Program-made: the position numbers and the translations under genes | Notes under the pieces: model-generated | Told to the model about the DNA's origin: nothing | The model's database searches: none | The model's input: only the letters and a program-made list of their open reading frames with translations | From: Theristus sp. LFF4_11 | Lineage: Eukaryota > Nematoda > Chromadorea > Monhysterida > Xyalidae | Assembly: GCA_030248135.1 (NCBI GenBank) | Contig: JASANC010004661.1 | Span: 1 to 64,000, forward strand | Reading direction: 5' to 3' | DNA length: 64,000 nt | Part shown: one piece after another, positions 12,415-44,850 of the stretch | Numbering within the stretch: position 1 is the first letter of the stretch | Layout of the letters: each line of letters starts with the position of its first letter

Positions 12415-15400
12415 ATGGATAAGTTCATTCCCATCTTCGTGCTATCTGTTCATACCACCGCGACATTAGCGCAACCAAATTGGGACTGGCTGTATAAAAC
12501 AAATGCTATTGAAACCACGAGGTTTCCAACGACCACAATTTCACAAAAACAACGTCGATGCGTTGAATACATTCGTTGTTGTCAATATCATGGAGAAAAT
12601 TGGTGTCGGCGAAACTTCGTGAGGCCACGGCGATGTGCACATGTGGTACGTGACCACGTCCGTTGGTTTTGTTGACATCGTTTCTATTTTTGTTCGCTAT
12701 GTTCGTAACAAATGCAATTTTTGAAAAATTCGCTTTTGACTTTTTCAGACGCAGCTGAAAGATCAAGTACCAGCTGGTAAGTTTTATTTACTCCTTATCT
12801 TGTACTTCACAGCAGAATTTCTACATATCTGCTCATTATGCTCATCGATAAAACTTATTTTCAGAAGCGATAATTTTACCGCTCGATCTCAGTTTTACGT
12901 CACAACTGAAATCCATATACACTTTCAAAAACAACCGGAGAAGAAAGCATCGTTCAGAATCTAATAATGCATCGTCATCTTCTGAAGACACCGATGAAGA
13001 TAACGGGGGTCGTTGGTTTAATGGCATAATTCCGTACGAAATCGTGTTTGAGGTACCCGAGGAATTCGAACGAACAATCAGTTCACAAAACAAAGATCGA
13101 ATTCGCAACGATGTTCTCGAAGCGATTACTATTTTGGAGGATACAAGCTGCGTCCAATTTATTCCGGTTCTTTCGAAGCGTATGCCTTACGTGCGTATTG
13201 TTGTGACGGAAGATCAATACTCTTGTGAATCAGCCATTGGTCGATTGCCCAACCAGTTGGTTTTAAAATTTAATTAAATTATGCCCGTTTTCGGTGATTT
13301 ATTTACATTCGGCGCAAAAAAAATTAAGCACAGAATTTTTTTAGATATCAGCCGCAACAAATTACAATTGGGTACCATTGTCACGCAGAGGAATACGGTA
13401 CCTCCGTTGTGTGGAGAATAGTGCATCAGTTGATGCATACGCTTGGATTTATTCATGAACATCAACGCGCCGATCGTGATGACTTCCTCTGGTTTGACGA
13501 GAACAATCTTTATGTATGCAAGTTTTTATTTCTCTTGTTGCAATGATTTTTCTTTTCCTTAAAAATACTTTAAGCAAATAATCGGCAATTAGAAAAATCT
13601 CGTTAAAACTGAGGAGCAGCTTATGTGTTGTTGTACATGCGAACACTTATATTTTAAATATTTATGATGTGGTCCATGAACCTTATTGCTCACTTAATGC
13701 AGTTGACTATTATTACAAACCGAGAAAAATATGACGTTTTTAAATTCGTTTTATGCGATTTTCAGGATTCTGACAAATTTAATTACGAATTAGCAAAACC
13801 ACTGAACGTATCAACCACGTTTGATCTACCTTACGACTACGCATCACTGTTACACTACCCGACGAGATCCACGGCTACCAGATTTCCTCAGATGGACGTT
13901 ATTCGTCCAAGCCGGCATATCAACCCTGCCCGTTTGGGCCGTGAAGAAGGTTTGAGCAGATTGGATGCGGAGCGAATAAATCGACTGTACGGGTGTAATC
14001 CGCCCAAACCATCAAGGTATGCAAATTATTGTGCAGAGTTTTCTACTACCCCACATTAAAAATCCAAAACCCATGCCAAAATTTATTTTAAATTTTGTTC
14101 CATGTCAAAGTTTCTTCCACAATGTTAAAAACTGCAAGTAAGTGATAGCATGAAATTTTGGCACAGATTGAATTTTTAACACATTCAATTTTGGCTTGGA
14201 TTTTAATATGAATTTCGGCATTTTTAGCATGCCTGAACAGCTGATAATAGGTAACGATGTATTGTGTACGTCCACATCATTTAAAAACAATCGTTTTTAG
14301 AAGACATCGTTCATTCACCCAGACCATCAATCGTTTTTCGTTTCAGATTGTCGAGAAGAATTGAATCGTCTCAAAAGATACAATTTACTGAAGAGCCATT
14401 AACTGCTGCATCCCCTACTACAGAAAGTACACTTGCGGTGACAACGACACCGCCGTCAACAACAACCACGATAATTTTAAAAGAGCTAAAACCGGCAGCA
14501 GCAGCGAAACCACAAAGCGAAGACGTTTTGAGAAGGCAAAGTGGGCAAGATATGTTTAAAAACGCACGATGCGCGCACCGATGCACTACCAATATGTCTT
14601 CTTTGATTTGTCACGCCCACGCAGAACTACGCTGCCAACAATTTTGTCGATTTGTTCACAAGCTGTACGTTGGTTGCTGTGATATGGAACGAGAACGCTG
14701 CCTATGTGGCTTTGCTTGCACTCCACCAACGACCACGACAACGGCGGCCACCACAAAAACCTCTTCACTAACCACTCGACGACCCTTAACCATATTTATG
14801 CACTTCAATAAGTGTAACGCGAATGAATTTGATTCTTGTCTTCTTTCTCATAATGAGGAATACTGCGACTGGGCGTTTGATCAGGAATGCAAAGAAGGCA
14901 ATCATCGAGAGCCCGAAACGGAGTTCGATGTGCCAATCGAGCGAACACAAACAAAGCGTGCTCTGCAATGGTTCGAAGCTGTGGTAAATTGGCATTTTTC
15001 AGAGTGTGTAGTTTGAGTCAGTCGAAACTTACTCAGAATCAGAGGAAAGTCTCACCATTGCCTAGATGCATTATTTGTAATCTTTCAGACTACGGTGGCG
15101 CCTGCCCCTCCTATTACCACACCACGAAACATCTTATTCAAGAAGTGTACTGCTTCTGAGTGGTACAACTGTGTTGATAAAATGCCAGACGATCGATGCG
15201 ACAGCGCTTGGCGCCGCATCTGTGACCCACCAGAAGAAGTAACTGAAGCGACAAGTCCGACAACAACTCTATCTGTAAGGAAAAACATATCTCTTAACGT
15301 CACCACTTCCTTTGTGATGAAAATTGCTGAATTTCAGACCACTACTGCAAATACCAAGCAGCGAACAAAACGACGGCGACGCATCAACGACCATCACCTT

Positions 15401-16652
15401 TTGCGCAATCGTCGCAGACTGACTCTGCGTCGAAGAACAGCGGTCAGTACTCCGCCATCACAACTGGTCCGCACCTCCCGGACACCAACCGTTGATTTCA
15501 ACGGCGTAACAACAAGAATAATTCTTGTTGAAAAGATTCGCACCAGACCGGCAAGAACAACAGCGACACCTACTTCGGCGGCAGCAACTTCAGCAACTTC
15601 TGCTGCCAGTTCATCTTCAACAACTTCCCATTTTATTTCAACCTTAACTTCAACGACGTCGCCTGAAACTTTAAGTTCTGCAACATCTCCAACTACGACA
15701 TCTTCAACGCCTTCCTCTATTATGACAACGTCAACATTTTCTTCAACCATTCCAGTTTCAAGTACGTCTTCAGCTTCAACTATAACCAATGTTCCTGTGG
15801 CGACATTTTCCGCAACCGCCAATGGAAACAGAATTACAGCGAGTCCAATACTAACAACACTACTTCAAAAACAGTCTACGAAGGGTCCATCGAAAAACAC
15901 AACTAATCAGCAACACATTTCTAGTGTTGTTTCTTTAACAACTACTAGGAGGGTTTTCCCAACAACGCCACTTTTTAACGGGTTACTGTCGTCTACAACG
16001 AAACGAGCTCGCAACGAGTCACAATCAATCAACCCGCGATGTCACCTGTTAGGGCGTCCACCAGTGTCTCAAGACAACAACAGATTTTGTGATGGTGTTA
16101 GTAGAACGCTTTCAAAAGATCAGCGATTATGGTATTATGATCATCAGAAACGTCGCTGTCTACCATTCAAAATATGTCCAGACGAAGCTGAGAATTTTGA
16201 TTTGACAATGTACATAAATCACTATCAGATATGGACGGACTGCTTCATTGAATGCGGTTAGTTTTCCAGAAAGCAATGTTCCTTTAGCCACTTATGTCGG
16301 CACATGTTATTTTATGACACTTCTTTTTTGCACATGTGGTCACATAAAATCGTTCTGATACAAAATTTTTTATGTTATACAAGTTCATTGACCACAGGTT
16401 TTTGATTATAAATTATCGGCATTTCGTTGGTGTTTCTTTGCAGGGGTGCCCAATTTGTCTACCATCGTTCATTCAATATGTGCTGATGCGGTCATTGAGG
16501 GGGATGGAACTTTCCCTGCGACTACCACAAAGTCGTTCAAGAGTTGTGTCCGCGAGCGCATGAACATGTTGCTAAGAGCGTTGATCATCGGTAAATGGAG
16601 GAGAAGAATAAAAGAAACAATGGAGCGGATCAATATTGAATTTACCGAATAA
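12415..16652 (+). CDS. Astacin-like protein 1 (predicted catalytically dead), multidomain, secreted
   Basis: Nine exons join in one frame (1006 aa): 12415-12645, 12749-12776, 12865-13255, 13345-13513, 13766-14016, 14347-14983, 15089-15274, 15338-16256, 16444-16652. Residues 1-20 are a signal peptide. A four-Cys module follows (C49-C74), then the 28-nt microexon, a short basic/acidic propeptide (RRRK at 111-114), and an astacin domain from about residue 135 (RWFNGIIPYEI). The zinc site is H244, H248, H254, but residue 245 is Gln where active enzymes have the catalytic Glu, and the Met-turn is SLLHY (Leu302). Ser/Thr-rich linkers separate a Cys-rich domain of defensin-like spacing (14570-14724), two more four-Cys modules (KCNANEF..., KCTASEW...), a very long Ser/Thr mucin-like stretch, and a divergent Kunitz-like domain (16039-16256). 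The last exon has no lustrin-type Cys pattern, unlike genes 2 and 3. Likely a secreted pseudoprotease that still binds zinc or substrate. Confidence 0.8.
14570..14724 (+). other. Cys-rich domain with defensin-like (CS-alpha-beta) spacing, gene 1
   Basis: Within exon 6. The core spacing is C-x7-C-x3-C-x9-CC-x6-C-x-C, preceded by a CxxxC pair and followed by one more Cys. The C-x3-C plus C-x-C pattern with G-C before the last group is that of the CS-alpha-beta fold, but homology was not tested. The gene 2 copy has identical spacing; gene 3 has a longer loop. Confidence 0.5.
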
Positions 16653-17541
16653 TGGTTTCTTCTATTATTTTCTGGTAGTCGAGGAAATGTTTTGATTTGG
16701 TAAAAAGTAATGGCCACGAGCCACGACTTTGAAGTGCTGTAGCGCGCAAACCGTTCCCACAAATTGCATTGAAATTTTAACCAGGTACTAACAAAAGTTG
16801 AGCTTAGATTTCTGCTAATTTTCGTGCAGAAACATGTAACATGCGAACGGTGCCTTTATAATTAAAGCCTAAAACACGAAAGCCTAAAACACATTTTCAT
16901 CCTTTTCCAATATTTGCTCTGCAACCGTTGCTCTTTTTCACTAAAGCAGAGAAACCCAGCTTAAATTTTTTTTTCACATTGGATTATTACATGAGTATAC
17001 AAGTTTTGTTGAAACTGACAACTTTGGAATTTGAAACATTTTTCAGATTTTTTCCAATCCAAAACAGTAATTTGAGTTTGTAGCGTTTGTTTCTCTTTTT
17101 AGGAAGAAGGCGTATTTTTTAGTAAGTCAAGTTTGTGAAAACATAAATTTTATTTTGTTGTAAAATCTGCCTTCAAACGCAATTATATAAAAAACGTGGC
17201 TGAAATTTGTGAAACACGCAGCAAAAAAATTCAGAATGCAAAAATCATCTTTTTTAATTGGGCATTTATGGGCTTTCATTCCGTTTTACTTAAAAAACTA
17301 CAGGATTTGTAAGCTGCCTGCTTCCGGTTGTAATTTCAGTTAAAATGGTTGAACGGTTGGCGCGCTATGGCGCTTCAATTCATGGGCACTACTTTTGCGC
17401 CACCCTGTAGAATAAAATGTATCAGCTGTGTGTCACGTGAAAAATGTTAGCAGATTGTTTAGTTTTCTGCATTTAACTTGCATGCATACTGTAAACAGTT
17501 AACAGCGAATGAAGCAAGTCTGCGATTTTTGGTGCAATGTA
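16653..17541. other. Intergenic, no gene seen
   Basis: AT-rich spacer after astacin gene 1. No domain-bearing open frame, no clear inverted-repeat element. Confidence 0.4.
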
Positions 17542-18266
17542 CAGGGTGGGCTAGAAAAACTACCGGATTTCAAACACCGGATCTCGCGTCTAGTTTAAGG
17601 TATAAGGCTGAAATTTGGAAACGTAGACCTGAGGTTCGCATGTTTATTGGAATCAACGATGTTAGTTTGCAACTGATTTGGTTCAGCTTCTCAATATGAG
17701 TCAAGTGTCTGAGTCATTTTTGCGTTCACCATCTTTCATTTTTCCCTTGAGAACTTCAATATCGGTTTGTTTGTTTGCAGTGCGTCCCAGTCGTTTCAAA
17801 TGTATTCAACATCAAATGGCAGTCACCTTGTGTTGCACTTTTTACACAGCGTCCTTTCAGTCAAAAAATTCAAATTTTCACTTTATTCAAAAAAAATATT
17901 GTTAAAAAACGCATAAACAGAAAAAAAATTATAAAAATTTAAAAAAATGCGAACCAAAATTTTTAAAATTCAGACCCACATACATCATGTATCATCTACT
18001 ATTTTTGTATCGAGACTCAATGCGCGCATAAATAGGTCAGCAGTTGCATGCACGACGCGGGAATTCAAAAATGGAAAATTGACTCGAGTCCGCTAAATAT
18101 GGCCGGGTCACTTAGGCTGCTGTGAACTGCCACATCAGGATTAAAACTCGTTTTACTTTTTGCGTCTGCAAACGCATTCAGTCGCTGAACCCAAGCAAAT
18201 TATGATACCTCCAACCAGATGCAAGATAGAGCAATTCGAAATCCGGTAATTTTTTGGCCCACCCTG
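17542..18266. mobile_element. TA-flanked element with CAGGGTGGGC ends
   Basis: Ends CAGGGTGGGCTAG... and its complement ...GGCCCACCCTG, with subterminal CCGGATTT/AAATCCGG, flanked by TA at 17540-17541 and 18267-18268. Ends of this kind belong to Tc1/mariner-type elements. No transposase frame. Partial relatives start near 31022 and in the 36410-36600 and 39060-39240 regions. Confidence 0.7.
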
Positions 18267-18690
18267 TACATATAATTAAACAAAATTCTAACCACAGCCA
18301 CTCTGTGTTCTTTCTTACCAACCACACTTTAGTTGGTAAACCGTGTTTGTTATTTTGTTCATAAAACGTTAACAACACTTTCTGCAACTATCGCATAACC
18401 TTGTTCTTCTGCAGTATCATGCGGATGCGCGAGCGAGCGCCAGCGAGCGGAGAGCGCATCACGCATAATATGAGCCGTTATCCCCTCGCGCGCTTTTTTC
18501 AAATTTGCTCGCTGCGTCCTGCGAGCATAGTATAAGCCACAAACTTGGTTCCGTGCACACGAAACGAACACCCAAAGTTGTGCTTGGAGCCGCGAAAAAA
18601 TTTTTATCCGACTACTTTTCATACGCTGTAGACACGAAAAACCTATTCTGAAAACAGTGTTACTTCTTTCCCTTTGTCCTTTTTTTTCAG

Positions 18691-19350
18691 GTATTGACGA
18701 TTTCGGGCGAATCGGCCGTCGAAATTGGCGAAATCGGTCCAGAAACGAAAAACAAGAAAAGGGTGTTTTCCAGGGTAATTCAATGCGCTGATTACGGATT
18801 TTGGGTTAGTTTTCTTACGTGAGCAACTCTAGATACTGAATCGTGACGATTTCGGGCGAATCGGCCGTGGAAATTGGCGAAATCGGTCCAGAAACGAAAA
18901 ATAAGAAAACGATGTTTTCCAGGGTAATTCAATGCGCTGATCACGGATTTTGTGTTAGTTTTTTTATCTGAGCAACTCTAGATACTGAATCGTGACGATT
19001 TCGGGCGAATCGGCCGTGGAAATTGGCGAAATTGGTCCAGAAATGAAAAACAAAAAAAAAACGGTGTTTTCCATGGTAATTAAATACACTGATCACGGAT
19101 TTTGTGATAGTTTTTTCATGTGAGCAACTCTAGATACCGAATCGTGACGATTTCGGGCGAATCGGCCGTGGAATTTAGTGAAACCGGTCCAGAAATGAAA
19201 AACAAGAAGTCGGTGTTTTCTATGGTAATTCATTGCGCCGATCACGGCTTTTGGGTCAGTTTTCTTATGTGAGCAATTTCTAGGTACTGAATCGTGACGA
19301 TTTTGGGCGAATCGGCCGTAGAAATAGCATAGACGAAATTGGCCTAAAAA
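18691..19350. repeat. Satellite array, ~150-bp unit, about 4.5 copies
   Basis: The word GACGATTTCGGGCGAATCGG recurs with spacing 149, 149, 152 and 150 (from 18696, 18845, 18994, 19146, 19296). Each unit also has CGGTCCAGAAA and AGCAACTCTAGATACTGA. Units drift toward the right end. The same satellite reappears at 63682-64000 and runs off the window. Confidence 0.9.
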
Positions 19351-19431
19351 CGAAAAATGAAAAACCTGAGTTGTGTGCCCAACGTATTGTGATTTTGGTC
19401 CGACCTTCGGGGCTTATGTAAAAGTCAGAAT

Positions 19432-20465
19432 ATTATCTAAAAATGCGGGAGACGCATATAAAAGGAGGAATATGGCCTTGTGTAAGCAGTGAAAGACTTG
19501 GCTCGACAACCTTTTCAAGTCTCTGATGTGGTACACACGGATACAAGTACATAAGAGTCATATTTTTGCGCCGTTTATTTTTTATTTAGGTTGCAAGTGG
19601 CAACCCTCGTACATTGTAGACAAATGAAACTTTCACATTTGCCTTTTTCTAGCATTTAGCGACCTCTAAAACCACTAAAATAACGATCAGACTTTAGATC
19701 GCTGACACTGGTTTGCACAAAGTGTATCGCAGAGGCATTGGGAACGCAAGGTCTCCTTCTGTGGCAATGACTCACCGGTTTATCCTGGCACAAGAGTTTG
19801 GTAAAAAGGGTGAAAATCAACGGAAGACAACACTTTTTGCACTGGTGCTGCTGTATGCACAGCGGTGCGTACGTTAGCAACAACGATAAAGCTACATGCA
19901 GCAATGTTTTGCAATCTCTGATGTTTCTGTTTTTTGCACAGAATTTACAGTATAGCCGATTAAACATGGCAGCTTTTTTCAGGGTGCAAGGAGCGCGCGA
20001 ATTTTGAATAAAAGAAAAAGAAGTTCAGAAACCAAATTGTATGCCAAATTTGACGCGTTTTTTAAGCTAATGGATTATCCGTATTATTCTGTTCATTCTT
20101 TCTCCCTTGCACACATGATTGGAAATTATGTTGGCATTTTTGAAAAAGACAACTCCTAGTCAACGACTAATCCCGCCTTGACGGACTGCCTCATTTATTC
20201 GGCCATGCTGTTCAGAATTTCGCACATGATGTGATTTTAGACTAAACTGAAGAGGACAATTGAAAAATATCTAGATAACTTCAAAATTTTTACGCTTTTC
20301 AACAAGCTTGTAAACAACAAACGCGGCGCAAAAATATGACTCTTATGTACTTGTATCCGTGTGTACCACATCAGAGACTTGAAAAGGTTGTCGAGCCAAG
20401 TCTTTCACTGCTTACACAAGGCCATATTCCTCCTTTTATATGCGTCTCCCGCATTTTTAGATAAT
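19432..20465. mobile_element. Element with ~141-bp terminal inverted repeats
   Basis: Arms 19432-19572 and 20325-20465 are almost exact reverse complements (ends ATTATCTAAAAATGCGGGAG). The interior has no transposase and hosts the MITE at 19948-20210. A piece of the same terminus is found inside the palindrome spacer near 9495-9521. Confidence 0.7.
19948..20210. mobile_element. MITE copy, same family as 6549-6813
   Basis: Starts CAGTATAGCCGATTAAA after a TA (19946-19947) and ends in the complement of CAGCATGGCCGAATAAA. Internal sequence aligns to the 6549-6813 copy in inverse orientation. The right TA has decayed to TT. Confidence 0.65.
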
Positions 20466-21034
20466 TGTGAATAAGCCTCCGATTTAAAGTTGAAAACTGA
20501 ATGTGCATTTTGCTAAATTACATTGACCGAAATAAACACGCAGTGATGTGCAGCAGATATTTGAGCGCAGTATTGATCGAGCTTTAGAGAAATCGAATGC
20601 TGATATCGACTTTATTCAACAGGAGGTTTGTTGAAATAAAACAGCTAAAGCACACAAACACGTTTTCATCTCAACTACGGAAGCTTTCGATGACTAACAA
20701 ATTTTTAGGTACTTTTCAATTATTTTATGTGACACTGAAAAAAATGTTCTAATTGTTTCGATTTCGAACACGTTGTTTTTAAGAAACAATTTTTTCTTAA
20801 ACAACAATTCAAAACATAAACAATGAATGGGCATGGTCATAAGATTTTTGCAAACGTTTAGAAACTCCGTAAATCGCTTGTCATTTTTTTGTTTCAAAAA
20901 AATTCTTCAATTTATGAGGGCCAAAAAAAAGCTTCATGAAAATTGTTCCTGAAAAAATGGCGACCGAAATCGATAAAAAAATCAGTTCGTGTTTCGAGAT
21001 CGAGCCTCTGTTCTTTATGCTTTCAGGTGCTGCA
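20466..21034. other. Upstream region of astacin gene 2
   Basis: AT-rich, no separate gene. The open frame of exon 1 extends back to an in-frame ATG at 20936, but the signal peptide fits the ATG at 21035 better, so this stretch is treated as 5' flank or UTR. Confidence 0.4.
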
Positions 21035-24000
21035 ATGAATATGATGAGTGAAATTGCTGCAATTTTAATCAGCCTTACTGTTTTGGTGTCTGTCACATTC
21101 GGGCAGTTCACAAACAGGAACTGCAACGAATACATCAGATGTAGTCAACATTATGGTGAACATCATTGCCGTGGCAAGTGGATGCAAGTGACACCAGATT
21201 GCCTGGTATGTTTATCGCCGTTTTCTATTAGCTCGTGGTTAGCAGCCGCAATAGCACAAGTTGTTTTTCAGATCCTTATGAAAGATAGAGTTCCAACGGG
21301 TAAGTACAGGGTACAGTGGGCAAAACAGCTAGTTCTCGAGTCCGCTTCAGTATTTTGGACTCAAATTTAAAACGCTAATTGAGAAATTTATTGCCATTAA
21401 TAGCGTTTAAAAAATCTCATCTGAAAATTCTAATCACCTGAAGCGCAGCGACGTTTTGAACGTCAAAATTCAAAATCGTCGGTTTCGAACGCATCTGTAG
21501 ACGTTCATTGTCGATTTACGAGTTTTACAGTTTTGTTTACCTTTTTCGATTTGATAGAAACGGCACAGCTTTAGCTGATCTTTATTTGGTTTAGTTTTTT
21601 AGCTGAACTACATTTCTCAAAGAAAAGTCACCGGTTATGTAGGCAGGACTACAACATTGAAACGCACTGAAGTTGTCTTTTTCCCATTTTTATTTATTTG
21701 TCACTTATCATTCACATTTTGCAGAAGCAATTGTTATGCCAACTGACACTCCTCTGTCAACGCAACTGCTGAAAATTTTTTCGCCTGATTTTCTAGTTAA
21801 CACTAATTTAAGAAGTTCTGTGCATCATCGAACTTTTTTAAATCATAACCGAACTTCTGGTCGTGTTTCTCGCGATAGTGCTGCACTTTGGCGGAACGCT
21901 ATCGTTCCGTATGAAATTCGGTTTGAAAACATTGCAAACGAGGAGCTACAGCGGATTCACCAGCAAATCCATGGTGCAATCAAAATTTTGGAGTCTGCAA
22001 GCTGTGTACGATTTTTCTCAACGAGCACTCAGCCGGGGCAATTTGGAGTGCTAATCATCGCCACCGAACAACAAGTGGCGTGCGAGTCGCCCGTTGGTAG
22101 ACTGCCAATCAGGTATATTTCCTGTAAAAATCGAGAAACTTGCGGTGCAAATTACTGATGTTTGCACAACTACGGGTGAACATTTTTGTTGAGTTCGCTT
22201 AGAAATCAACCGCAACGAGTCACTCTTGGGCATCACTGCCACGGCCGCGAGTACGGACGGGCGGCCGTGTGGCGCACCGTGCACGAGCTGCTGCACACGC
22301 TCGGCCTCATGCACGAGCACCAGCGAGCCGACCGCGACGCATTTGTTGCGGTCTACTTTGCAAATCTTTATGTGCGTGTTTTGTGCCCAGACTAATATGT
22401 CATGCAAGTGTATGTGCGCGGGACCAGAGACAGCTTTGAAAGCAATGACTTTGCGGGGCTAGCGACAGTATTGAAAGCAATGAGTTTTCCACAATAATAT
22501 TTTGAAACTGTCGAAGCATGCAAGCAAGCATTCTTTCCAGGAGTCTGACAAGTCAAACTACCGGATCGAGGATGGTCGCGCTGTGAGCACTCTTGGTTTG
22601 CCGTACGACTACGATTCCTTAATGCACTATCCCGAGCAATTACCGGCTACCAAAAATCCGCAACATGGAGTGTTACGAGCGCTGAAACGTTTGAACGGTG
22701 TCCGGCTCGGTCACAACGATCACCTCAGTGAAATGGACAAGCTGCGGCTGAATCGACTGTATCGCTGTGCAGCTTCGACTGCGGCCACAAGGTAAGAGGT
22801 GACGTTTTGGCATTTTGGTGACTTTTCCAATGATCCTTTATTGTTTTCCAAATAACAGAAGAACAAAAATCAAAAGCAAAAAGCCAAAAGCTACACAAAA
22901 ACACCTAAAACCATGTGTGAAATCAAGTGCACAAGCTACAGACTTGTGAACTTAACTGTGGACTTCAAGTAAAAATGCTTCCATCGCGAGTGAGTCAAGC
23001 AAGACTCTTCGCTGACCATTGATCGACGAGCCACACTGACTTTTGAAGATCCACGTTGCACCATACTCAACCACAAGAGAGCGCCCATCAATGGACCGAA
23101 ACGACGACCCTGGCGATCACAACAAAACCAGCGGAACCACTGAGCAGACGCGATCGAGAATGCGGTCAACGTTGCGGACACATGCCGGTGAGCCGCTGCG
23201 AACAGCTAGCGAACCGTATGTGCGAGCACTGGTGCCAAAAGCGCACTACTCTGAACGGCGGCTGTTGTGACATGGCTGCGAAACGGTGCGTCTGTGGATC
23301 GTCCGCGTGCGCACAGCGGTCGGGCACGATGGGCACTGATCCGCTGTCGAATACGCCGCCAACAGCGACGACGGTGGGATAGTTTTCGAGTTGCATTAAC
23401 GTCAGTCGGTGTCTCTGCTTTTTCAATGCAATCTAGCTACAACGACAACAGCGCAAGTCAATTCCACTTTCACTGACATTAAGTCTTCTCCCTGGTTCAG
23501 TTTTCAGTTTTCCACCAGGCAACAACAAACACGCCCGTCAGAACAACTCGAACATCACCGACCACAGTTCATCGCGTCACCGCCGATCTGCGTGGCATTT
23601 GTGAAAGCATGCGCAGCTGCACGCAGCAGGGGCTGGCGGAGTGTCAGCGCAAATGGACAGAGCTGAACTGTGCTGTATGTGGTTTGAGGTTTAGTGTTGT
23701 TCTCAGTGGCTGAAAACCATGCCGAACAGTGAAAAAGCAGCGCTACCAAAAGTGTGACAACAAATTGGACTGGACACCCCATCCTCACCGAAAACCGTAC
23801 CGTTAGAGAAACCGTACCGAAGCCGAAACCGAAACCATGACCATTTGCAAAACCATGGAAACCGCTCCATACTATAAAGTTATTAGCGCAAACTAAAAAT
23901 GGGTAGTATAATTTATCAGTTCGTTTTTTTTTTTGGTTTTCGCTGAATCGCGAGCTTTGTGGCTGCGTTTTTTAAATGTCACTGCTTCAGTGGCTGGCTC

Positions 24001-26173
24001 GGCCAACACCAGTGCCAGACACCACTGTTGTCACGGGACAGCCGAGTGTCTGTGATCGTCGCGGTTTCCATGCGTGTGTCACTGAGCGAGGTTACGCATC
24101 ATGCGAACGGCAGTGGCACCAGCAGTGCGTTGAACGTGGCACCACAACAACCGTGGTACGTTGTTATTGGAATGGTTCACTGAAAGCTTGGTGTTGAGAA
24201 TGGTACAGGTTTGTGAATGCAATCTGTGAAGTGAGGATTGCAGTCGCTCGCATCTGTGCGTTACATGAATGAAGCATTGTTTATCATTGGCTTTCCATGC
24301 TGACATTGAGTCCCGAAAACTGCATTGATACTTTTACGCTTCTTTCTGAGCAGTCGTGTATAAACCGGCGAATTTTGTGCATTTAGTCAGGACCACTACT
24401 GGCCGTCGCCAGGGGCGCCGCAGTACGTTTTGTGCACTGTACACCCACTGAATGGGCGGAGTGCACGCAGCAGTCGCATGGCCACCAAACAGAATGCGCG
24501 CACATTTGGCACATGGATTGTGATCACAAACAAGCGGTCTAAATCATTTTGTTAATTTATGGAATACTGGCTTCAAAATCTTATCTTCCTTTCTGTCTTG
24601 CAGACTGCGACAACATCAACCTCTGAAAGTGTTGTCACAGAAATCGAACTCAAAACCAGTCGTACTTCTGTGGACATTCGTCGACGGATACTGCCTGTGC
24701 AACCGCAGGTTACAGGCGTGACGAAGGCAGCGATCGAGACGACAACGACGGCAATGTCGACGAACACTCCACCGAGTGAATCCAACCGAGAAGCAGTCAC
24801 CACCACCAGCGCTGTTGTTGATCACTCCTCGGGGATCACCACTGAAACTGTTCGATCAACGATCAACGAGCGGTGGTCAATGGTGACATCCGACACAGCA
24901 CAGCGACCGCCCACTGAAACCGGCAGTGCACTGCGTGATCAGGCTTGTCATTCGTCCGGCAAACCGCCACTGGCAGCACGGCAATGCAAAACAGCCAGGC
25001 GTCACTGGTATTATGAACACAGATATAAGCTGTGCCTTGCGTTCATGTTGTGCGTTGACAGGGAAGGCCGCACCGGCAACGCATCGCAGCGCTCGAATCG
25101 GTATGAAACGTGGACGAGTTGCCATTTCAGTTGCGGTGCGTTTTCTTCGTTGTTCACTTCTACACTTCCAATGAACAGTTTTTTTACACCACACTCATTT
25201 GTCACAGGCAAAAACGATGAAGAACCGTGTCACGGCGGTTTTCAGCCAGCGATCGACGCTAACAATCACGTGATCTATTGTGCGTCTACGGTTCAAGCAA
25301 AACAGACGACCAACTGCCCAGCGGGATACGAGTGCACATCAATGCAACGTCATTCCGTCTGTTGTAATGAGACCGTGCAGAGTAGGTGGAACTATTATTT
25401 TTTTCACCAATTGCTTTAAAATGTCATCAGCCATGTCATTCATTCTGCGTGCCAACAAATTATAAGTGGTTGAAAATAGTCAAGCAGTACACCAGGCAAA
25501 CCTGAGAAGCTCTTGGATGCTTTTTCTGAGCCACACAGCAGCATCGCCGCCGTGTGCACTGCCAATATAGCGCAGACTCCACGTGCATCCGTTGTCGGTC
25601 CCAGCACTAGCAAGTGATTGTACCGTACAATTTGTACGTCCACCGCTCAGCGCTAACAAACATAAGATCAAAAAAGCCCCGAAAATGTCCACAAGAAAAG
25701 CCGACAGAAGTCATTTTTTGCCATGAAGAATGGTATGGCACGGATATTGTTATGGTATTAACTATGGCCCTCAGAAAGGCGTGGGCAATGCATTTTTAAG
25801 AGTTATGTGATTCTAAAAGAGGCTAATGCATCGAATTTGAAAAACACATCTGCATGACGGTTTTTTAGCAAGTTTTCCTCATCACTAGCTATCATCATTA
25901 TCACTAATTTCAACTGGGTCGTGATGTTGCGCAGGACTTTATGCTGAGAGCTACCGACCGAGCTGTCCAAACGCTAACCATCAAGTTGTGATGCACGAAA
26001 CGTCGGGTGTCCATCAAACTTTGCTCGGCTCCTCATGTGATTTGATCAACTTTTGTCCATCTCCTTCCGAATGTATACCACCCAATCCTGACAAACTTTT
26101 TGCACATTGCTGCGCCCCTAGCGACGACTCCGGTATTACGTTCCACGGTAACAATGATCTTGTAAATAAGTGA
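21035..26173 (+). CDS. Astacin metalloprotease 2 (predicted active), multidomain, secreted
   Basis: Twelve exons join in one frame (915 aa): 21035-21205, 21272-21299, 21725-22112, 22203-22371, 22541-22791, 23049-23373, 23519-23674, 23991-24155, 24387-24536, 24604-25135, 25208-25381, 25935-26173. Signal peptide (1-24), four-Cys module (C30-C56), 28-nt microexon, short propeptide, then an astacin domain starting near LWRNAIVPYEI. The zinc motif HELLHTLGLMHEHQRADRD keeps catalytic Glu224, and the Met-turn SLMHY keeps Met280, so this copy should be an active zinc endopeptidase. C-terminal to it are a defensin-spaced Cys domain (23161-23307), three more four-Cys modules, a Thr/Ser linker, a six-Cys Kunitz-like domain with the WYYE signature, and two lustrin-type Cys domains (CPAGYECTS...CC). 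Exon 4 and exon 5 lengths (169, 251) equal those of gene 1. The acceptor at 23048 and the donor after 24536 are weak, so the 23.0-24.6 kb exons are the least certain. Confidence 0.8.
23161..23307 (+). other. Cys-rich domain with defensin-like spacing, gene 2
   Basis: Spacing C-x7-C-x3-C-x9-CC-x6-C-x-C, with GG before the Cys pair (a gamma-core-like G-x-C arrangement) and a CVC end. Identical spacing to the gene 1 copy. Whether it folds as a defensin is untested. Confidence 0.5.
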
Positions 26174-26298
26174 TAGAAAAACATAGTTCAGTGCGAAAAT
26201 TTTGTTTTTTTTTCTGTCCAGTTTATGGAGTAACTCAGCGACTTGCATGCTGTATAAAACTGTGCATTAGTTCTTATAAAAAATCAGTTGTGTGCTTA

Positions 26299-26646
26299 CC
26301 GTAAAGTCGTGCATATAAGGGGCTCGTATAAAAATTTGAAATCAAAAAAAATTTTGAATGTCAATCCACCGTCAAATTTCCACTGCCCCCTTCCTCCCCC
26401 GCTTCCCCCGTTTAATTTTGAAGACGACGTCGTCGTCATTGTCACCATCGTCGTTGTGTTTCTGTTTTTTAGTGCTCATAAGTTGTGATTTGCTGTTCAA
26501 ATAATTGTCCTTCGTATAAATAAAGCAAAACAAAAAAGACATGATAAAAAAGACCTTGGGATGTGTGGGATTTTGACAAAATCAAACACTTGAGTGGGCA
26601 AAAGTCTCTTGTAAATGGGGGACATCTTATATGCAAGACTTTGTGG
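26299..26646. mobile_element. MITE copy, family of 676-1401
   Basis: Ends CCGTAAAGTCGTGCATATAAG and the near complement of CCACAAAGTCTTGCATATAAG, flanked by TA at 26297-26298 and 26647-26648. About 348 bp, no coding content; lacks the nested G/C-run element found in the other copy. Confidence 0.75.
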
Positions 26647-27360
26647 TATTGCTTTGCAGAGCTATTACCTTTTTTTAGATTTTGCTTCAATATTGCTTCA
26701 TTCTGGTTAATTTTGGGTACTGTATTTTTTCGTTACTTCAGTGGCAGCGCTGTTCGTTTTATTTGACGTCCACACGTGTGTGTGCACTTGAATTGTTAGT
26801 ATCATCACATGATTAATGATTACACTAAATAACCGGTTGCCCAGTCGGTTAAGATCGGTTGATTTGTTGCTGCATACGTGTAATTTACAATATTCATAAT
26901 TCGTCCGCTATTGCAACTGAAAATTCCTTTTTTTAAAAAAAGCGAGAAAAACTTTTTGCTCAAAACTATACACAGGACAATAATCCTAAAATCTGTGATA
27001 AGATAATACAACATAAAGTAGCAAACAAGCATACTTTTTGGCTTTAAAAAAAGGCACGTGTAATATTTGTAACAAACGCTGAAAAAAATCAAACGTGTTT
27101 TTGAACGCGGAAAAGCGCACGAAGTATTTTCATTGATGGAGGAAGAAAATTTCCGGTAAATTCTGATAACAGATAAACTTTATCAAAACTTCGGTTTGAG
27201 TTGTCTTGGAATCGGTTTGAACAATCCGGTCAGTTTGATTCGTAGAGTAACCGAGCGAGCACCAATCTGAATAAAAAATAGAATCAAGTTGCAGGAAGAC
27301 GTATTACCCCTCGGAAAAATGACAGGTTTATTTGGATATGCTGTACGTGCTGCTAAAAGG
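26647..27360. other. Spacer between astacin genes 2 and 3
   Basis: AT-rich, no recognised gene. An in-frame upstream ATG for gene 3 lies at 27319, giving a 14-residue longer N-terminus. Confidence 0.4.
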
Positions 27361-30300
27361 ATGGCGTTGATGTTCGTAATTGTGTTCACTGTGATCCGAT
27401 CGGCAACAGCAAACGTTGATGACAGTTGTACAACGTTCATTACATGCGCCAGACGGGCAGCACAGAGCGTCTGCCGCAATTCAATGCCGCTGCCCGCTTC
27501 GCAAGCAGGCCACTGCCCACTCGTGCGTTGAGCTCTTGTTTTTTATGGTGTATGCTGCGTAAAACTACTTGGTATTATCTTTTGTTTTGGTTCTGCGCGC
27601 ATGGAAATGTGAACAGTTGTTCCATGCGTAACGCGGCAATTCAAAATTGGCGAAGTGACCCGTGCGTGTCCTTAAGATACGATCGAGTCACTAGGCCTTT
27701 TTTGAATAATATTCGCACCAAGCACAAAACTGATTTCCTTTAGACCGGCAAACGCTTTGAGCCGCAGAACTAAAAGAAAAAACAATGCCTGCATTCATGA
27801 CATGCACGTGAAAATCGTGGCATTTTGCATCGGTGTTTGAAAACGTTAGCTGGCGTTAACAAAACAACCACACCGTTTTACAGATTGAACGACTAGAAGG
27901 CAAGGTGCCCGTTGGTAAGTTGAAAAAAGTTTTCTGATGATTTTAATTGAAATTTTTTGTTTGTGTTTCCAACTGTGATGTTCGCATTATTTTTCAGAAT
28001 CGATTCAAATGAACAATCAAACAAACACTGCTCACGTTGGAAAGGAACCTGAGCTTTGGCCGAATGGTGAAGTGCCGTACCAAATCAACATCACTGGTTT
28101 TATGTCGAATTTAACCGAACCACCTCGCATAGTGCACGAAGCGATTCATATTTTGGGCAACGCAAGCTGCGTCCGCTTTCGACCGACCGAAAAGAACGAT
28201 CGATACAAAGTGATCATTGACATCAATGAGTACCAGTTTGCGTGCGAGTCTGCCATTGGACGCTTGCCGTTGTAGTAAGCAGAATAACCGTACTTATCGA
28301 AGCACAGTAATTGTTTGTTGTTATGGTTTAAACCTGTCATTTTTTCCGTAGAATACAGGCTCGAGAAAAAACGAACGGTATCAGAATTGCAGGAAGACAC
28401 CAATTTAGCCACAAATTGGGGTGTTTGATTTCAATCAAGTCCGATATACATTTGTTGTTTTTTTCTTACTGGCTGTTAGTGCATGCTGTGTACTTTCCGA
28501 AAAAACGACAGGTTTATCCACGGTGCTGTGCTTACTGTTTTGTTCATTTTGCATGCTTTTGTGTTTGCAGTGAACAAGCGCAGCGTGTCATACTCGGCCG
28601 TCACTGTTACGACCACAAGACCGAGCGAACAGTCGTTGTGCATCGTGTGGTGCACCAACTGATGCACACACTCGGCTTCTGGCACGAACATCAACGTCCC
28701 GATCGTGACGAACACATTCAAGTGTACTCGGACAGGCTTTACGTGAGTCCAGCAAATCACAACAAAACCATATATGTACAGTCGAACTCCAGATTACAGG
28801 CAATCAACACCTGATTGGTTGGCGATCACACGTGAGGGATGCTTCCTGTGCAGGCACTGTTGTGGGGGCGGAGTCTGTCCTGCACAAAAAGTATGCATCA
28901 TGTGATCACCAACCAGTCAGCGGATTGCCTATAATTTACAGTTCGACTGTACGTGGAGAAAGGTAATTTTGCAAAATTGAACACCACATTGACTGCTGTG
29001 CTCATTCTCTGCCCGCAGCTGTCCGACCTTGTCAACTATAACGTTGTAAGCAACATGGATACGCTCGGGCTTGCCTACGACTACGACTCACTGTTGCACT
29101 ATCCAACACACGGTCTCACGCGAAACGAAACCCGCGATTTCGTCATTCGACCGTTAGACCCAAGCAATATTGGCGTTATCGGTCAAGAAAATCATCTGAG
29201 TGGACTGGATAAGCAACGTCTGAATAGACTGTACCGCTGTGATGGCACTGCGTTGCAACCGAGTCAACTGCGCAACCATGCTCGTGTAACATCAACAAGG
29301 CAGATCAACATCAACACCACTGAGACGAGCGCGATCACCACAACACCGACGACCGCAACGACATCCACATCCTCATTCAACTCAACCCCAAAGGACACCA
29401 CCACGCAAGGAGAGACGCGAGACCTTCGTTGTCATGGTGACGGGCGACCGGGCGGCGCCGAATGGGCCTGCGACACCGGGCGACTTTTCTGGTACTACGA
29501 CCAAAATCTACGCGAGTGTTTGGCGTTCAAGTATTGCGCAGCGGCAGCCGGCGACAAGGCGAAGCAGCGTCTGAATCGCTACGAAACCTGGACCGATTGC
29601 TACCATCAGTGTGCAGCAGGTGACCTGCAGACCGGTGTACACTGTGGTTGATGTCACAAACAAAACGCGCACTCACATTTGTGTGTTTGTTTGTGATTGC
29701 TGCATGTTACACAAATGATAATGCACTGCTTTCGTGACTAGAACTGTAGTCGCATTTCGATATCGAGGCAATTTGATGATTGGTTTCGTGATCATGTCCA
29801 GTGCAGGAAAGATTCCATCTGCACTGCAATGCCTGCACAGAAAGCATGCATCACGTGATCACCAACCAATCAGCTATTTGGATATGACATAAACTGTATT
29901 GACTTGTTTTTAATGCCCATAGTACAGTGACGTTCAGAGCAGAAGAACCAACAAATTTTCTGCAGATGACTTCCAGCCATGTTACGGCAACGAACGACCA
30001 CTAGCCAACGGTCATTCAGTGCAATACTGCGCGTATTGGCCGAAACGTGCGGGCAACGTTGCACAGCAGTGTCCGCCCGAGTACGAATGCACGTCACAGC
30101 AGCGACACTCGCTCTGCTGCAATGCGACGGTGCAAAGTCGGTTTTGCACTTGCTCGCGATTGCGTCAAAAAAGTTCTTTTTATAAACAAATCCTTGCCCA
30201 CATTTTTACGAACAATTGAGTTTGCGATTGGACGTGGAACTTGTTTCGACATTACCCGACGTTAACTACTGCTCACTTAACACAACACTTGCCATTGCTG

Positions 30301-30769
30301 TTCAGAACTGTACCGCGACAGCTACCAGCCGCAGTGCGCCGGCGCGAACGAGGCGGTCGTGATGCACAGCGTTGCCGGCATCGACATGGCGCTCTTTGGC
30401 CGCTCGTGCCAGCCGAGTTTCTGTCCGAGTGACACGAACGAAGCGGTCACCTGCGTTCCGGCCACTGCGACCAAGCTGTTTGCGCACTGCTGTGTGCGCT
30501 TCTCGAACGAACTTGTGCGTTCCCCGATGCTGATGCGCTCGCCGGGCGTACCACCACGCTGTCGCCACTGCTCGCTGCCACTGGCTGGTCGACCGATTGC
30601 AAACTGTCGAGTTCGAGCGAATCACTTCTGCGATCAGTGGTGCGCCGTCAACCGCCGCAGCAAAGTGGCGTCGAGGCGCACAAGGCTGAACCGGCGGCCG
30701 AAGAGCGGCTGTTGCTTGCAGCGAGAGCGGCGATGCAGCTGCCGCGGAATTCGGGCGGCATGCATGTGA
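27361..30769 (+). CDS. Astacin-like protein 3 (predicted catalytically dead), multidomain, secreted
   Basis: Seven exons join in one frame (625 aa): 27361-27522, 27884-27914, 27998-28274, 28571-28742, 29019-29619, 29966-30136, 30306-30769. The ATG at 27361 gives a compact signal peptide. Four-Cys module C23-C52, then the microexon, here 31 nt (one extra codon). Astacin domain from LWPNGEVPYQI. Zinc ligands are kept but the catalytic Glu is Gln186 (HQLMHTLGFWHEHQRPDRD), and the Met-turn is SLLHY (Leu240). The intron that splits exons 5 and 6 in genes 1 and 2 is absent. A Thr linker leads to a six-Cys Kunitz-like domain (FWYYD signature), two lustrin-type Cys domains, and the defensin-spaced domain placed last (30560-30766) rather than before the Kunitz. 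Intron 4 holds a MITE (28779-28949). The 31-nt microexon restores the phase needed by exon 3, which supports the model. Confidence 0.8.
28779..28949. mobile_element. 171-bp TA-flanked MITE in intron 4 of astacin gene 3
   Basis: Ends CAGTCGAACTCCAGATTA and the near complement ending GTTCGACTG, flanked by TA (28777-28778, 28950-28951). Inner arms carry GATTGGTTGGCGATCAC and its complement. Related pieces occur at about 10900-11030, 29800-29900 and 56485-56646. Confidence 0.75.
30560..30766 (+). other. Cys-rich domain with defensin-like spacing at the C-terminus of gene 3
   Basis: C-x7-C-x3-C, then a basic loop of 22 residues, then CC-x6-C-x-C. The same cysteine frame as genes 1 and 2 but with a longer, Arg/Lys-rich loop, and moved to the very end of the protein. 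Confidence 0.45.
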
Positions 30770-31985
30770 ACGCGCCGGCAGACGACGTGATGCGCTGCTC
30801 CGGGTGAAGAAAACTGATTTTCCAGGGTTCATGATCATTTTTGTTTCCAGCGGATTTTTCTGTAGTATGTTTTTTTCATCATCATAATTCAGCTTGCAAA
30901 TCACAATGTGATTAAAATTCAATATGCGGTGAGACTTTTGAAATGATTTTTTAACAAAAAACACAGAAAAGTTAGTGTGCGCCGAAGCAGTAGCAAACAA
31001 CTTTTCGAATTTGTGGCCAAGTACAGATAGGCTAACTGCCGGATTTCAAGGTGCATCATCTGCGTCTGGTTTCAGGTTTTGGAGCTGAAAATTGGAGGTT
31101 TTGATGAATTGGAAAAAAGTTCGAGGTATCGAACTCAAGATGATGACTCCGCAGCTGCACAAACCACCGAGTGATGGACTTCAGTAATCAACAACACCCA
31201 CATTCAGGAAGATAAATGATGAAAACAAGAACATTTGCAAAAACAGAACAAAATGCTTTGCGGAAAATTGTTTTTAGGTGCAAAACTTAAAGGGGTTAAA
31301 AGACACTAAAGGCCTGTTCGTACGACGTATGCGGACGTACATCTCCATGAGCGATTCAATGACACGCGACCTAACGTGACGTGGCGTGCCGTACATGCAT
31401 GCGTCTGTATCCTTAACCTGGTTCAACAATGTCGTACAGTTCTCAAATGCGGAAACGTACCGCAATTGCGTGCAGAGTGTTTGAGTTTTACCCACCTTTA
31501 CCCACTTTTAATTAAATAAGGTAAATATTGCACGACGCTGTTTCAATCAGGTTGTTGTCAATTGTGCCTCTTTTTTTCAGCCAACTTTCACCCCAAAAAG
31601 TTTTTTGCTAGTCCAGTCGAAATGTTGTGTTCTTTGTTTTATCCCTGATTTTGCACTTTTTTCACGTGCATGCAGTTTTTAAGAAACTGTATAGGCTTGG
31701 CCCGTGTTCTGATGTCTCCATTACAAAAAAATCAGTTTTCAAATTATATTTACGCTGACCAAAGTAAAATACATACGGTGCACAAAAAAAACAAAAAACT
31801 TGTTTCTTAAAGTCGCTGAGTTTGCGTTTTTTATTCACCGTTGGCTCTCTGCTGCAAGAAAGTATGTCAAACAAATGGCGAAAATTTTCATGATACGTTT
31901 ATTAAAAGTTGTTGCAAAAATTTAATCTACGTAAATCTGAAGTGTAAATTTCTGTATTTTTGGTCATGTAAAAAATAACTGAGCA
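30770..31985. other. Spacer between astacin 3 and the SRCR gene
   Basis: A fragment resembling the left end of the 17542-18266 element begins near 31022 (CTGCCGGATTTC). No gene recognised; a long antisense frame at 30302-31000 is the shadow of the last exon of gene 3. Confidence 0.4.
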
Positions 31986-34900
31986 ATGTCTGCGAATGCA
32001 TTTGAAAGCATTCTTCTGATGGTCATGATGGCATACGTGACCGTAACCGAGTGTTCGACAGTTTCATGCCAGGATTACGCAGACTGTATCGAGCGCAGTG
32101 GTGAGAGGCAATGCGAGTCGGCATTCAGCTCGCTGTTGTGCACTCCAACGGTAGTGTCGAAACTTTTTTTCGTAGAATTTTGTAATCTACACAATCCTGA
32201 TTGTTGTTCCAATTTTGCCGTATGTAATTGCAGGAAGAAATCGCCACGACGCCGTCGAACGGTAAGCAGCGTAAAACAGTTTCGCGCTTTTGAAAATTTG
32301 TTTCTCCAGAACTGAAAGCACAGATTGATGGATTAAACATGGATTAAAAAAACTTGAATTTGATTCGAAGTAGTCGAACGCACAAAAAAGTGTCTTCCAA
32401 ACTTTGGAAAAAGCAAACGATATCAATGCAGTTTCATTCGAGACCGTTGCAGGCTGTGCCGACACGAATTCAATGTTCAACTGCGGAAATGGACAATGCG
32501 AAAGCAATCGAAAACTGTGTGACGGCGAAACTGGCTGCGCAAATGGTGCTGACGAAGATGAGCAGTTGTGCAAGGGTGAGTGATGAGATGCGAGCTTCAT
32601 CAAAGTTGAACGTCGGGCGCTTTGTTTTTGGCAAACTGTGTAAATTTGGTGAAACATGGGTGCAACAGTTTTTGAAAAAAACTTCAGTCGAACTGCAAAG
32701 CACTCAGCTGCTCCGGAGCTCAACGCACAGCTCACCTGGGCTGGGCTCACTGATTGATTCAGTGAACTCGAGATACCGCCAATCAGCATACCAGATTCAA
32801 ATTCCAGAACAATGCGCATATACAGACTGCACATTGGCTGGCATTCGGTATGACTGTTCAATTTTTAGAGCCAATGAAAGTGCGTTTGGTGAACGGTAGT
32901 AACAAGCGCAGTGGTCGGCTAGAGGTGTTCTACTACGGCCAGTGGGGCACCGTGTGCGGCGACCGATTCAACAGCAAAGCCGCGCGTGTTGTTTGTCGCA
33001 TGATTGGAATTCCGTTGGTTTCATGGCGGAGTCAGGAATTACGTATTAGACGATTTACTCAACAAATTACCAAACAAACTCGTCGAGCTACCATATCATT
33101 TTTCTTACTGAACGTGTCGTAATATGCAATTTCACGCACAGATGGGAAACATATCACGGCTGCGCGGCAATTTGTTGTGCTTCATTGGGACACTTGGTCG
33201 AGTTCGTTTATAAAACGGAGCGGGGATTCATCTTCCCTCATTTTATGAACACCCGATCAATCCGCCGATATTGGCGAACGCTTTTCCAGAAACGCAGTGG
33301 TCGAACTACACAAGACGGTCGTCTTTGGAGCAGGCACGGGACCGATCTGGCTAGATGGTGTCAATTGTGTCACTGGAAATGAAAGCTCACTTGCCGAGTG
33401 CACGTTTCGCGATGGACATGTGGGCGCACACGAGTGTGAGCACGCAAACGACGTCGGAATCACGTGTCATGGTTTGATTGTTTCGTAATGGCTTACAAAA
33501 TTGACAAACAGAAAAGTAATGACAAAGAAGAGAATTCCAGCGGACGTGTTCTGCTTTTGTTCAGTTTTCCTTGTTTCGCGCAGTACCAATACGCGTAGTG
33601 AACGGAGTGAACAAAGCCTCCGGCCGACTCGAGGTGTACCACGCGGGCAGGTGGGGCACCGTGTGCGACGATCAATTTGACGACAACGACGCGCGAGTGG
33701 CGTGTCGCATGCTCGGCATTCCGTGTGTTTGAGAGCAGAACTTTTTTGATAGTCTCACCACGCACAGTTTAACCAATAGCTTTTTTTCAACAATTTCTGC
33801 AGAATTGTTTTGTCGTTACGTAACAAGCAACAAAGTTTGGAAACGAAGTACGAAATAGGAAGAAACAGTCCCACACCACCCGTTCTCATCTCAGAATTCA
33901 CATGGTTTCCATCCGCAGTTGACTGATCTTACTTGGATTCACGCAGCAATTCTGAAAACGCGACTGTGCAAAAGTACACTGGTGGCAGCGGACCCATCTG
34001 GATGGACGAAGTTAGCTGCGCCGGTGACGAGATATCGCTGTTCCATTGCAACGTCAGTCGTGCACGCCTCGGCGCTAATGACTGCAACCACAGCGAAGAC
34101 GTTGGCGTACAGTGTGCAGGTCGGGATTCGCAATTATACAGTATATGTGGCATGTGCCAATATTAGTGCCATTAAACTGGTAATTCCATTCGATTATTAG
34201 TTCCATTTTTGAAACCATTTTTAGTGAAGTTTCTGGCTGAGACACGTCCATATTGAGATACACTACTTCAGCAAAGTGGTGAAACGTGTTGACGCTTTTG
34301 TTGAACTATTTTTCCCATATGCATTACTATGTTTTTCTGTGTCACACAGACGCGCAACTTTTGCTCTGCAGTGCAGGCTCTCTGCCGGTTCGTCTAGTAA
34401 ACAACAAGAGCTCTGTATCCGGTCGAGTTGAAGTGTTCAATGAGGGAGTCTGGGGCACCGTATGCTCGGATGGATTCGACGCCAATGACGCACTGGTCGT
34501 GTGTCGCATGCTTGGATTCCCGTTTAGTTTTTATTATTGACGTTATTTTGCTATTTTTGATGCTTATGTAAAAGTCAAGTGCAATCCAAACGAGACAACG
34601 CGCGCAAATTATTGCATATATTGCGGGTCGATTGCGCTTTGTGTCAGGAATGAGACATTCCACAATATGGACGTTCTTGTTCCGGTGCACTGCTTCCTGC
34701 ATTATTCGTGGATTTACGGTAATTTACGGTAGCAGGAATTGTTTTTCCAACGTTTTCCATTGTTTTAGGATGGGTCACGTGCGGCCGTTGGTGCACAGCA
34801 GCGCTCAGTTCGGCCAAGGTCACGGGCCGATCTGGTTGGATGACGTACAGTGCAACGGCAACGAGACGAGCTTGTACGAGTGCAACTACAACAGCAATCA

Positions 34901-36784: not shown

Positions 36785-36849
36785 TGTTACAGTGATTTTA
36801 TTTCTGGTTCAACAATATCCTGTGTAAATAACCCTGGTGTGCTACTGTA

Positions 36850-44690: not shown

Positions 44691-44692
44691 CT

Positions 44693-44850
44693 CAATCTGG
44701 CTCCGGTCTCAATCAGGCCAGTTTCAATCGGGCTCGGCTCAATCTGGCTCGGCTCAATCTGGCTCGGTTCAATCTGGCTCGGCTCAATCTGGCTCGGCTC
44801 AATCGGGCTCGGCTTAATCTGGCTTGTTTCAATCGGGCCAGACAGAATTT
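44693..44850. repeat. 15-bp minisatellite (GGCTCGGCTCAATCT)n
   Basis: About nine units with small changes, at the 5' edge of the LINE. In one frame it reads as repeated LGSIW, extending the RT open frame artificially. Confidence 0.8.

Follow-up and report, generated by a model that had tools for sequence, protein, structure and literature searches.

The 64,000-nt stretch of contig JASANC010004661.1 analysed here ("the window"), from the nematode Theristus sp. LFF4_11, raises the question of why a gene encoding LDLa and SRCR domains should begin in the same way as the proteases beside it. Three astacin genes (A1, A2, and A3) and one SRCR gene (S) lie in tandem on the plus strand, and all four start with an exon for a signal peptide and a four-Cys module, ending in phase 0, followed by a microexon that is entered in phase 0, left in phase 1, and bordered by AG and GTAAG (Table 1). 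The two exons together are called the cassette here. The microexons have the positions and lengths given by an initial annotation of the window (28, 28, 31, and 28 nt), and the four-Cys module is also as described there, with a spacing of C-x5-C-x8-C-x9/10/13/8-C, except that the x7 spacing it reported was an artefact of an extra Cys in A1. Signal peptides, and the glycosylphosphatidylinositol (GPI) tail mentioned below, were read from hydrophobic stretches alone. Judging from sequence, S is probably an exon-shuffled chimera, with the front end of an astacin subfamily and an LDLa-SRCR body, fused at the phase-1 intron that follows the microexon.

The front end and body of the SRCR gene

A profile was trained on 17 astacin exon-1 modules, with S left out. 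Exon 1 of S scores 17.1 bits against it, at the low end of the leave-one-out range of the astacin modules themselves (14.8–48.1 bits). Of 5000 shuffled versions with Cys positions fixed, 4964 were scored and just four reached this value. Ten other open reading frame (ORF) peptides with the pattern C-x5-C-x7/8-C-x6-13-C were found, and the best of the nine scored reached 5.4 bits. The S phase-0 donor is 9 nt past the last Cys, which is a family position: among the 17 astacin exon 1s the best-scoring donor past the fourth Cys is in phase 0 in 16 (the exception is L042b, L-numbers denoting fetched genomic stretches and C-numbers contigs). In 12 of the 17 it falls between +3 and +9 nt, and in seven of them exactly at +9. 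The S microexon fits the 28-nt, phase 0-to-1 type with a GTRAG donor. The chance background was taken from 2187 non-exonic windows of 302 nt, none of which contained a 28-nt candidate with a GTAAGY donor; looser definitions gave 10 (28 or 31 nt, GTRAG), 61 (22–43 nt, GTRAG), and 175 (10–70 nt).

Joined in silico, S is an open frame of 573 residues in 12 exons (31986–36785), with the order leader, four-Cys module, microexon, LDLa, four SRCR domains, and C-terminal hydrophobic tail. The four SRCR stretches are above the Pfam cut-off (350.3 bits, E 1e-106). The LDLa domain is named from a sub-threshold match to PF00057 (18.9 bits in the whole protein and 21.5 in its N-terminal part, against a cut-off of 24.1) together with its similarity to an LDLa on contig C2175. 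A long mosaic gene found on C2175 and C1530, contigs 95.9% identical to each other, is the best match to both the S LDLa (55–59%) and an SRCR half-domain (61–69%). As in S, its SRCR part comes after LDLa, and the phase-1 borders are at matching places as judged by eye; S has four SRCR domains.

SRCR matches were found on eight contigs besides the window. At four of these loci (C61, C3533, C2009, and C2386) the four-Cys exon is absent from the stretches read, a difference from S; the start of the C2175/C1530 gene and the 5' ends at C2914 and C1036 were not read. Transfer from astacin to SRCR gene is the likelier direction, because the cassette is found across the astacin subfamily and, in the stretches fetched, not upstream of these four SRCR loci.

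The cassette in the astacin subfamily and a copy without its protease

The genome searched comprises 159 Mb, with at least 155 astacin matches (150 of 367 candidates scored). It also has eight matches to PF01060, a family characteristic of nematodes, in line with a nematode assignment. A search with A2 identified a set with identical exon cuts, and 20 stretches around them were fetched. In 14 of the 20, an exon 1 with hydrophobic leader and four-Cys module lies upstream of the astacin exons, giving 15 further gene copies (L042 holds two genes, L040 and L041 are near-identical, and L043 overlaps L042). No exon 1 was seen in L030, L035, L037, L044, and L048, of which L037 and L044 end at contig ends. 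The module consensus is approximately C-x2-[FYW]-x2-C-x4-GE-x2-C...C, with GE missing from some members.

A 28-nt phase 0-to-1 microexon was found in nine of the 17 genes scanned: A1, A2, L029 (GPLKGKVPG), L031 (LQLKSETPT), L032 (KALASKTPV), L036 (EQLEERIPT), L039 (DELTGRVPQ), L045 (AVLDKKIPA), and L046 (NGMNAHLPT). Those of A3 and L033 are 31 and 40 nt. The nine 28-nt peptides resemble one another beyond what shuffling gives, an agreement that is partly circular, since a filter for a terminal x-P-x was used to choose those of L032, L036, and L045; an unfiltered scan also turned up unrelated 22–43-nt candidates in L033, L034, L036, L038, L039, L042, and L047. As had been suggested in the initial annotation, a homology search was made with one exon-1 query. 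It matched seven places, five of them at astacin genes (on C2792, C3519, C468, C1667, and C2748); of the other two, one is the deleted copy on C3495 described below, and the other is on C635, which ends 275 nt past the match. With exon 1 in 15 further copies and the 28-nt microexon in nine of 17 genes, the cassette is probably an old 5' part of one astacin subfamily and not a local peculiarity of the window cluster.

The four-Cys exon might instead be a common lineage-specific secretion module that heads many secreted genes, in which case S would have no special relation to the astacins. This seems unlikely. Four-Cys modules do occur inside A1 and A2 as well, but none of the five internal ones, in the C-terminal parts of these genes (C-x5/7-C-x7-10-C-x7/8-C), exceeds 5.5 bits on the exon-1 profile, where S scores 17.1. 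The placement of the seven query matches also speaks against a module of general use, as does the lack of a cassette exon in the stretches read at the four other SRCR loci.

The gene copy on C3495 (stretches L051 and L062) bears on how a cassette could come to head a different body. Up to position 5210 of L039 it matches the gene on C2792 (L039 and L063) at 98.985% (1970 aligned columns), and after position 7948 at 97–98%, but it lacks the 2738 bp between them, with 90 bp of a dispersed repeat in place of the block and no N at the junction. The missing block carries the first LDLa along with the propeptide and astacin exons; the TSP1-TSP1-LDLa exons are retained (two TSP1 domains and one LDLa are recognised by Pfam). 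Exon 1 has zero nucleotide differences from C2792, and the 28-nt microexon and its splice sites are identical. The C3495 copy may be an allele or a paralogue, or a fault of the assembly. If real, the loss supports the module-loss mechanism proposed for S below.

Weighing the joint and the source of the front end

Several observations weigh against this reading of S. The modest whole-frame E, the weak donor with its rivals, and the microexon peptide among them would favour a coincidental resemblance, with an S first exon that is unrelated and simply small and Cys-rich and a microexon that is not real. Searched against 2145 window ORFs, the exon-1 profile gives the whole S frame a modest E of 0.81 (best domain 0.0077), and a chance minus-strand ORF outranks it (E 0.054). 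A single-sequence search with S exon 1 had no significant match (best E 0.77). The exon-1 donor (acg/GTAGTG) is weak, at a score of 4.0. Two in-frame phase-1 alternatives are present, gtg/GTGAGA within the module (score 8.0) and GTAATC behind exon 1, where the frame is open (tied at 4.0); either could splice directly to the LDLa exon, bypassing the microexon. The microexon peptide, EEIATTPSN, is unlike the astacin ones (score -4.4, equalled by 37% of shuffles), with its Pro at position 7 and not at the family position, 8. Within the astacin subfamily itself, no family-type 28–40-nt microexon was found in six of the 17 genes scanned; three of these (L042a, L042b, and L047) have doubtful 22–25-nt candidates and three (L034, L038, and L040) have none. 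A search of the S introns turned up no remnant of an astacin (best E 0.066, within exon 1), so that replacement of a protease block gains no support there, and C3495 could be a misassembly. Coincidence is nevertheless quite improbable, given the four matching shuffles among 4964, the rarity of the 28-nt GTAAGY candidate, and the phase-0 donor at a family position. The GE-x2-C residues from 32101 onward fit the consensus of the family, so the full S module is probably coding.

Least probable of the three alternatives is a single ancestral mosaic of cassette, astacin, LDLa, and SRCR, from which S and the astacins would be opposite loss products: the cassette astacin on C2792 does have LDLa and TSP1 modules downstream of the protease, and weak LDLa matches (E 0.008–0.47) lie just behind the astacin exons on C3356, C3519, C246, and C2188, but none of the eight SRCR contigs outside the window is among the astacin matches listed, and the S LDLa is nearer to the C2175 LDLa than to any astacin-gene LDLa among its own listed matches.

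The initial annotation had derived the S front end from a neighbouring astacin gene by duplication, or else all the genes from one mosaic gene. The astacin-type character is supported, but a neighbour as donor is not: in pairwise comparisons of exon 1, the gene on C3519 has the highest z (5.7), ahead of A2 (3.8), A1 (2.7), and A3 (0.6). Over 34 residues these scores point weakly to the C3519 gene, ahead of the neighbours, as the immediate donor. The A1 internal module at 15146 is level with A2 (z 3.8), a further point against an exon-1 origin, although as a source of S exon 1 the internal modules are disfavoured by their profile scores. A shared promoter, also proposed there, is not supported, with no blastn match longer than 13 nt among the four 5' regions, and the sole match between the S 5' region and the astacin loci is a dispersed repeat (31354–31410). 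Nor need a single cassette be spliced onto several bodies, because exon 1 and the microexon are present in all four genes, in each in a diverged form.

In the proposed chimera the joint would work through the reading phase. The cassette would encode a signal peptide, the four-Cys module of about 30 residues, and 9–10 residues ahead of the propeptide, with the microexon converting the phase-0 end of exon 1 to phase 1. Among the blocks examined, those of LDLa, SRCR, TSP1 (with acceptors chosen by eye), and propeptide-astacin all begin in phase 1, so that any of them can fit behind the microexon and bodies are exchangeable in frame. S probably arose when a cluster astacin gene was duplicated and one copy then lost its propeptide-protease block or had it replaced, the kind of loss that C3495 would illustrate. 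Its product is predicted to be secreted or GPI-anchored, with LDLa and four SRCR domains behind an N-terminus of astacin type. More tentatively, the cassette may be a reusable 5' launch unit, repeatedly kept (possibly with its expression and secretion route) while the body was deleted or swapped at the phase-1 joint, giving protease, pseudoprotease, TSP1/LDLa (C3495), and LDLa/SRCR (S) proteins.

In exon shuffling, symmetrical phase 1-1 extracellular modules are joined at phase-1 introns. For SRCR genes, shuffling of phase 1-1 modules is treated in PMC10855680. The S cassette would differ from the usual case in its 5' unit, which pairs a signal-peptide exon with a microexon that changes the frame and is retained while the block behind it is lost or swapped. 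Literature searches returned nothing that appeared to describe such an astacin front end on an SRCR gene. If correct, this would be a small concrete case of the construction of a new extracellular receptor gene, whose front end, joint, and donor lineages can be traced within one genome, together with what looks like an intermediate (C3495).

Among the 100 candidates from a protein-database search with S residues 1–104 there was no match with an E of 10 or below, and a solved-structure search gave one match, at E 0.77. An AlphaFold model of S exon 1 (4 rows; mean predicted local distance difference test score 66.7, two helices) was not used.

The astacin bodies and other features of the window

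Table 1. Positions of cassette exons, gene bodies, and competing splice donors in the four genes (window numbering).
Feature	Position	Strand	Remarks
A1 exon 1	12415–12645	+	signal peptide, four-Cys module; phase-0 end
A1 microexon	12749–12776	+	28 nt; TQLKDQVPA; phase 0 to 1
A1 propeptide and beginning of astacin domain	12865–13255	+	
A1 astacin exons 4–5	13345–13513, 13766–14016	+	zinc motif HQLMH at 13424 (E to Q); Met-turn SLLHY at 13832
A1 internal four-Cys modules	14813–14890, 15146–15223	+	C-x7-C-x8-C-x7-C
A2 exon 1	21035–21205	+	signal peptide, four-Cys module
A2 microexon	21272–21299	+	28 nt; ILMKDRVPT
A2 propeptide and astacin exons	21725–22112, 22203–22371, 22541–22791	+	canonical HELLH, SLMHY
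A3 exon 1	27361–27522	+	signal peptide, four-Cys module
A3 microexon	27884–27914	+	31 nt; IERLEGKVPV
A3 propeptide and astacin exons	27998–28274, 28571–28742, 29019–29619	+	HQLMH at 28653; SLLHY at 29076
S exon 1	31986–32150	+	signal peptide, four-Cys module; phase-0 donor 9 nt past last Cys
S rival donor GTGAGA	32101–32106	+	within module; phase 1
S rival donor GTAATC	32182–32187	+	behind exon 1; phase 1
S microexon	32234–32261	+	28 nt; EEIATTPSN; phase 0 to 1
S LDLa exon	32453–32575	+	phase 1-1; below Pfam cut-off
S SRCR exons	32869–35797	+	four domains, each cut by a phase-2 intron; phase-1 borders
S last exon	36657–36785	+	end of SRCR4; putative GPI-like hydrophobic C-terminal tail

The in-silico joined A1, A2, and A3 score 114, 120.5, and 122.9 bits with Pfam PF01400 (Astacin), against a cut-off of 22.5. 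They resemble known astacins (family M12A, including the nematode NAS proteins) in hydrophobic leader, propeptide, and catalytic domain, and differ from them in the additional four-Cys module between signal peptide and propeptide; in a passage of a review of the astacins (PMC9848320), added domains are placed downstream of the catalytic domain. Described here is an astacin subfamily with an N-terminal four-Cys module that has no match in a Pfam scan. A protein-database search with A2 found three distant astacins. Further four-Cys modules are present in the C-terminal part of A2 (23600–23680, 24051–24128, and 24438–24521), and A3 has a Kunitz-like stretch, under its Pfam cut-off, downstream of the astacin exons.

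Only A2 among the three has the catalytic HExxHxxGxxH. A1 and A3, unlike the M12A astacins, have Q for the catalytic E, and by sequence they are astacin-like but probably inactive. The catalytic Glu is also replaced in L029 (HQLMH), L045 (HQLLH), and L026 on C3460 (HHLMH; upstream sequence unavailable), making four cassette astacins with Q (A1, A3, L029, and L045), and HE is kept in the remaining ones. Leu is common in the Met-turn of the cassette subfamily; at other astacin loci (L001–L008), all eight have HE and the six Met-turns found have Met. Several members of the subfamily thus look like pseudo-astacins. The aspartate-switch motif [FYM]xGD was not found in exon 3 of A1–A3 or in the matched pieces of L033, L034, L035, L038, L044, L045, L047, and L048, searches with no positive control, since it was also missing from two non-subfamily pieces (L004 and L005).

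An Rfam scan of the window gave no match. About 0.6 kb upstream of A2 exon 1 is an element (19432–20465) whose 142-nt ends form a perfect inverted repeat with 750 nt between them, which looks like a young non-autonomous transposon; a tandem array of a 149-nt unit in 4.2 copies is at 18695–19325. Retrotransposon-like coding sequence is found on the minus strand at 3636–6127 (endonuclease-family and reverse-transcriptase ORFs) and on the plus strand at 44460–46628 (a separate reverse-transcriptase ORF). Long G-rich and C-rich runs recur several times, in both orientations, at 42740–44660 (by eye), and a Kelch-repeat exon is located at 7283–7759 on the plus strand.

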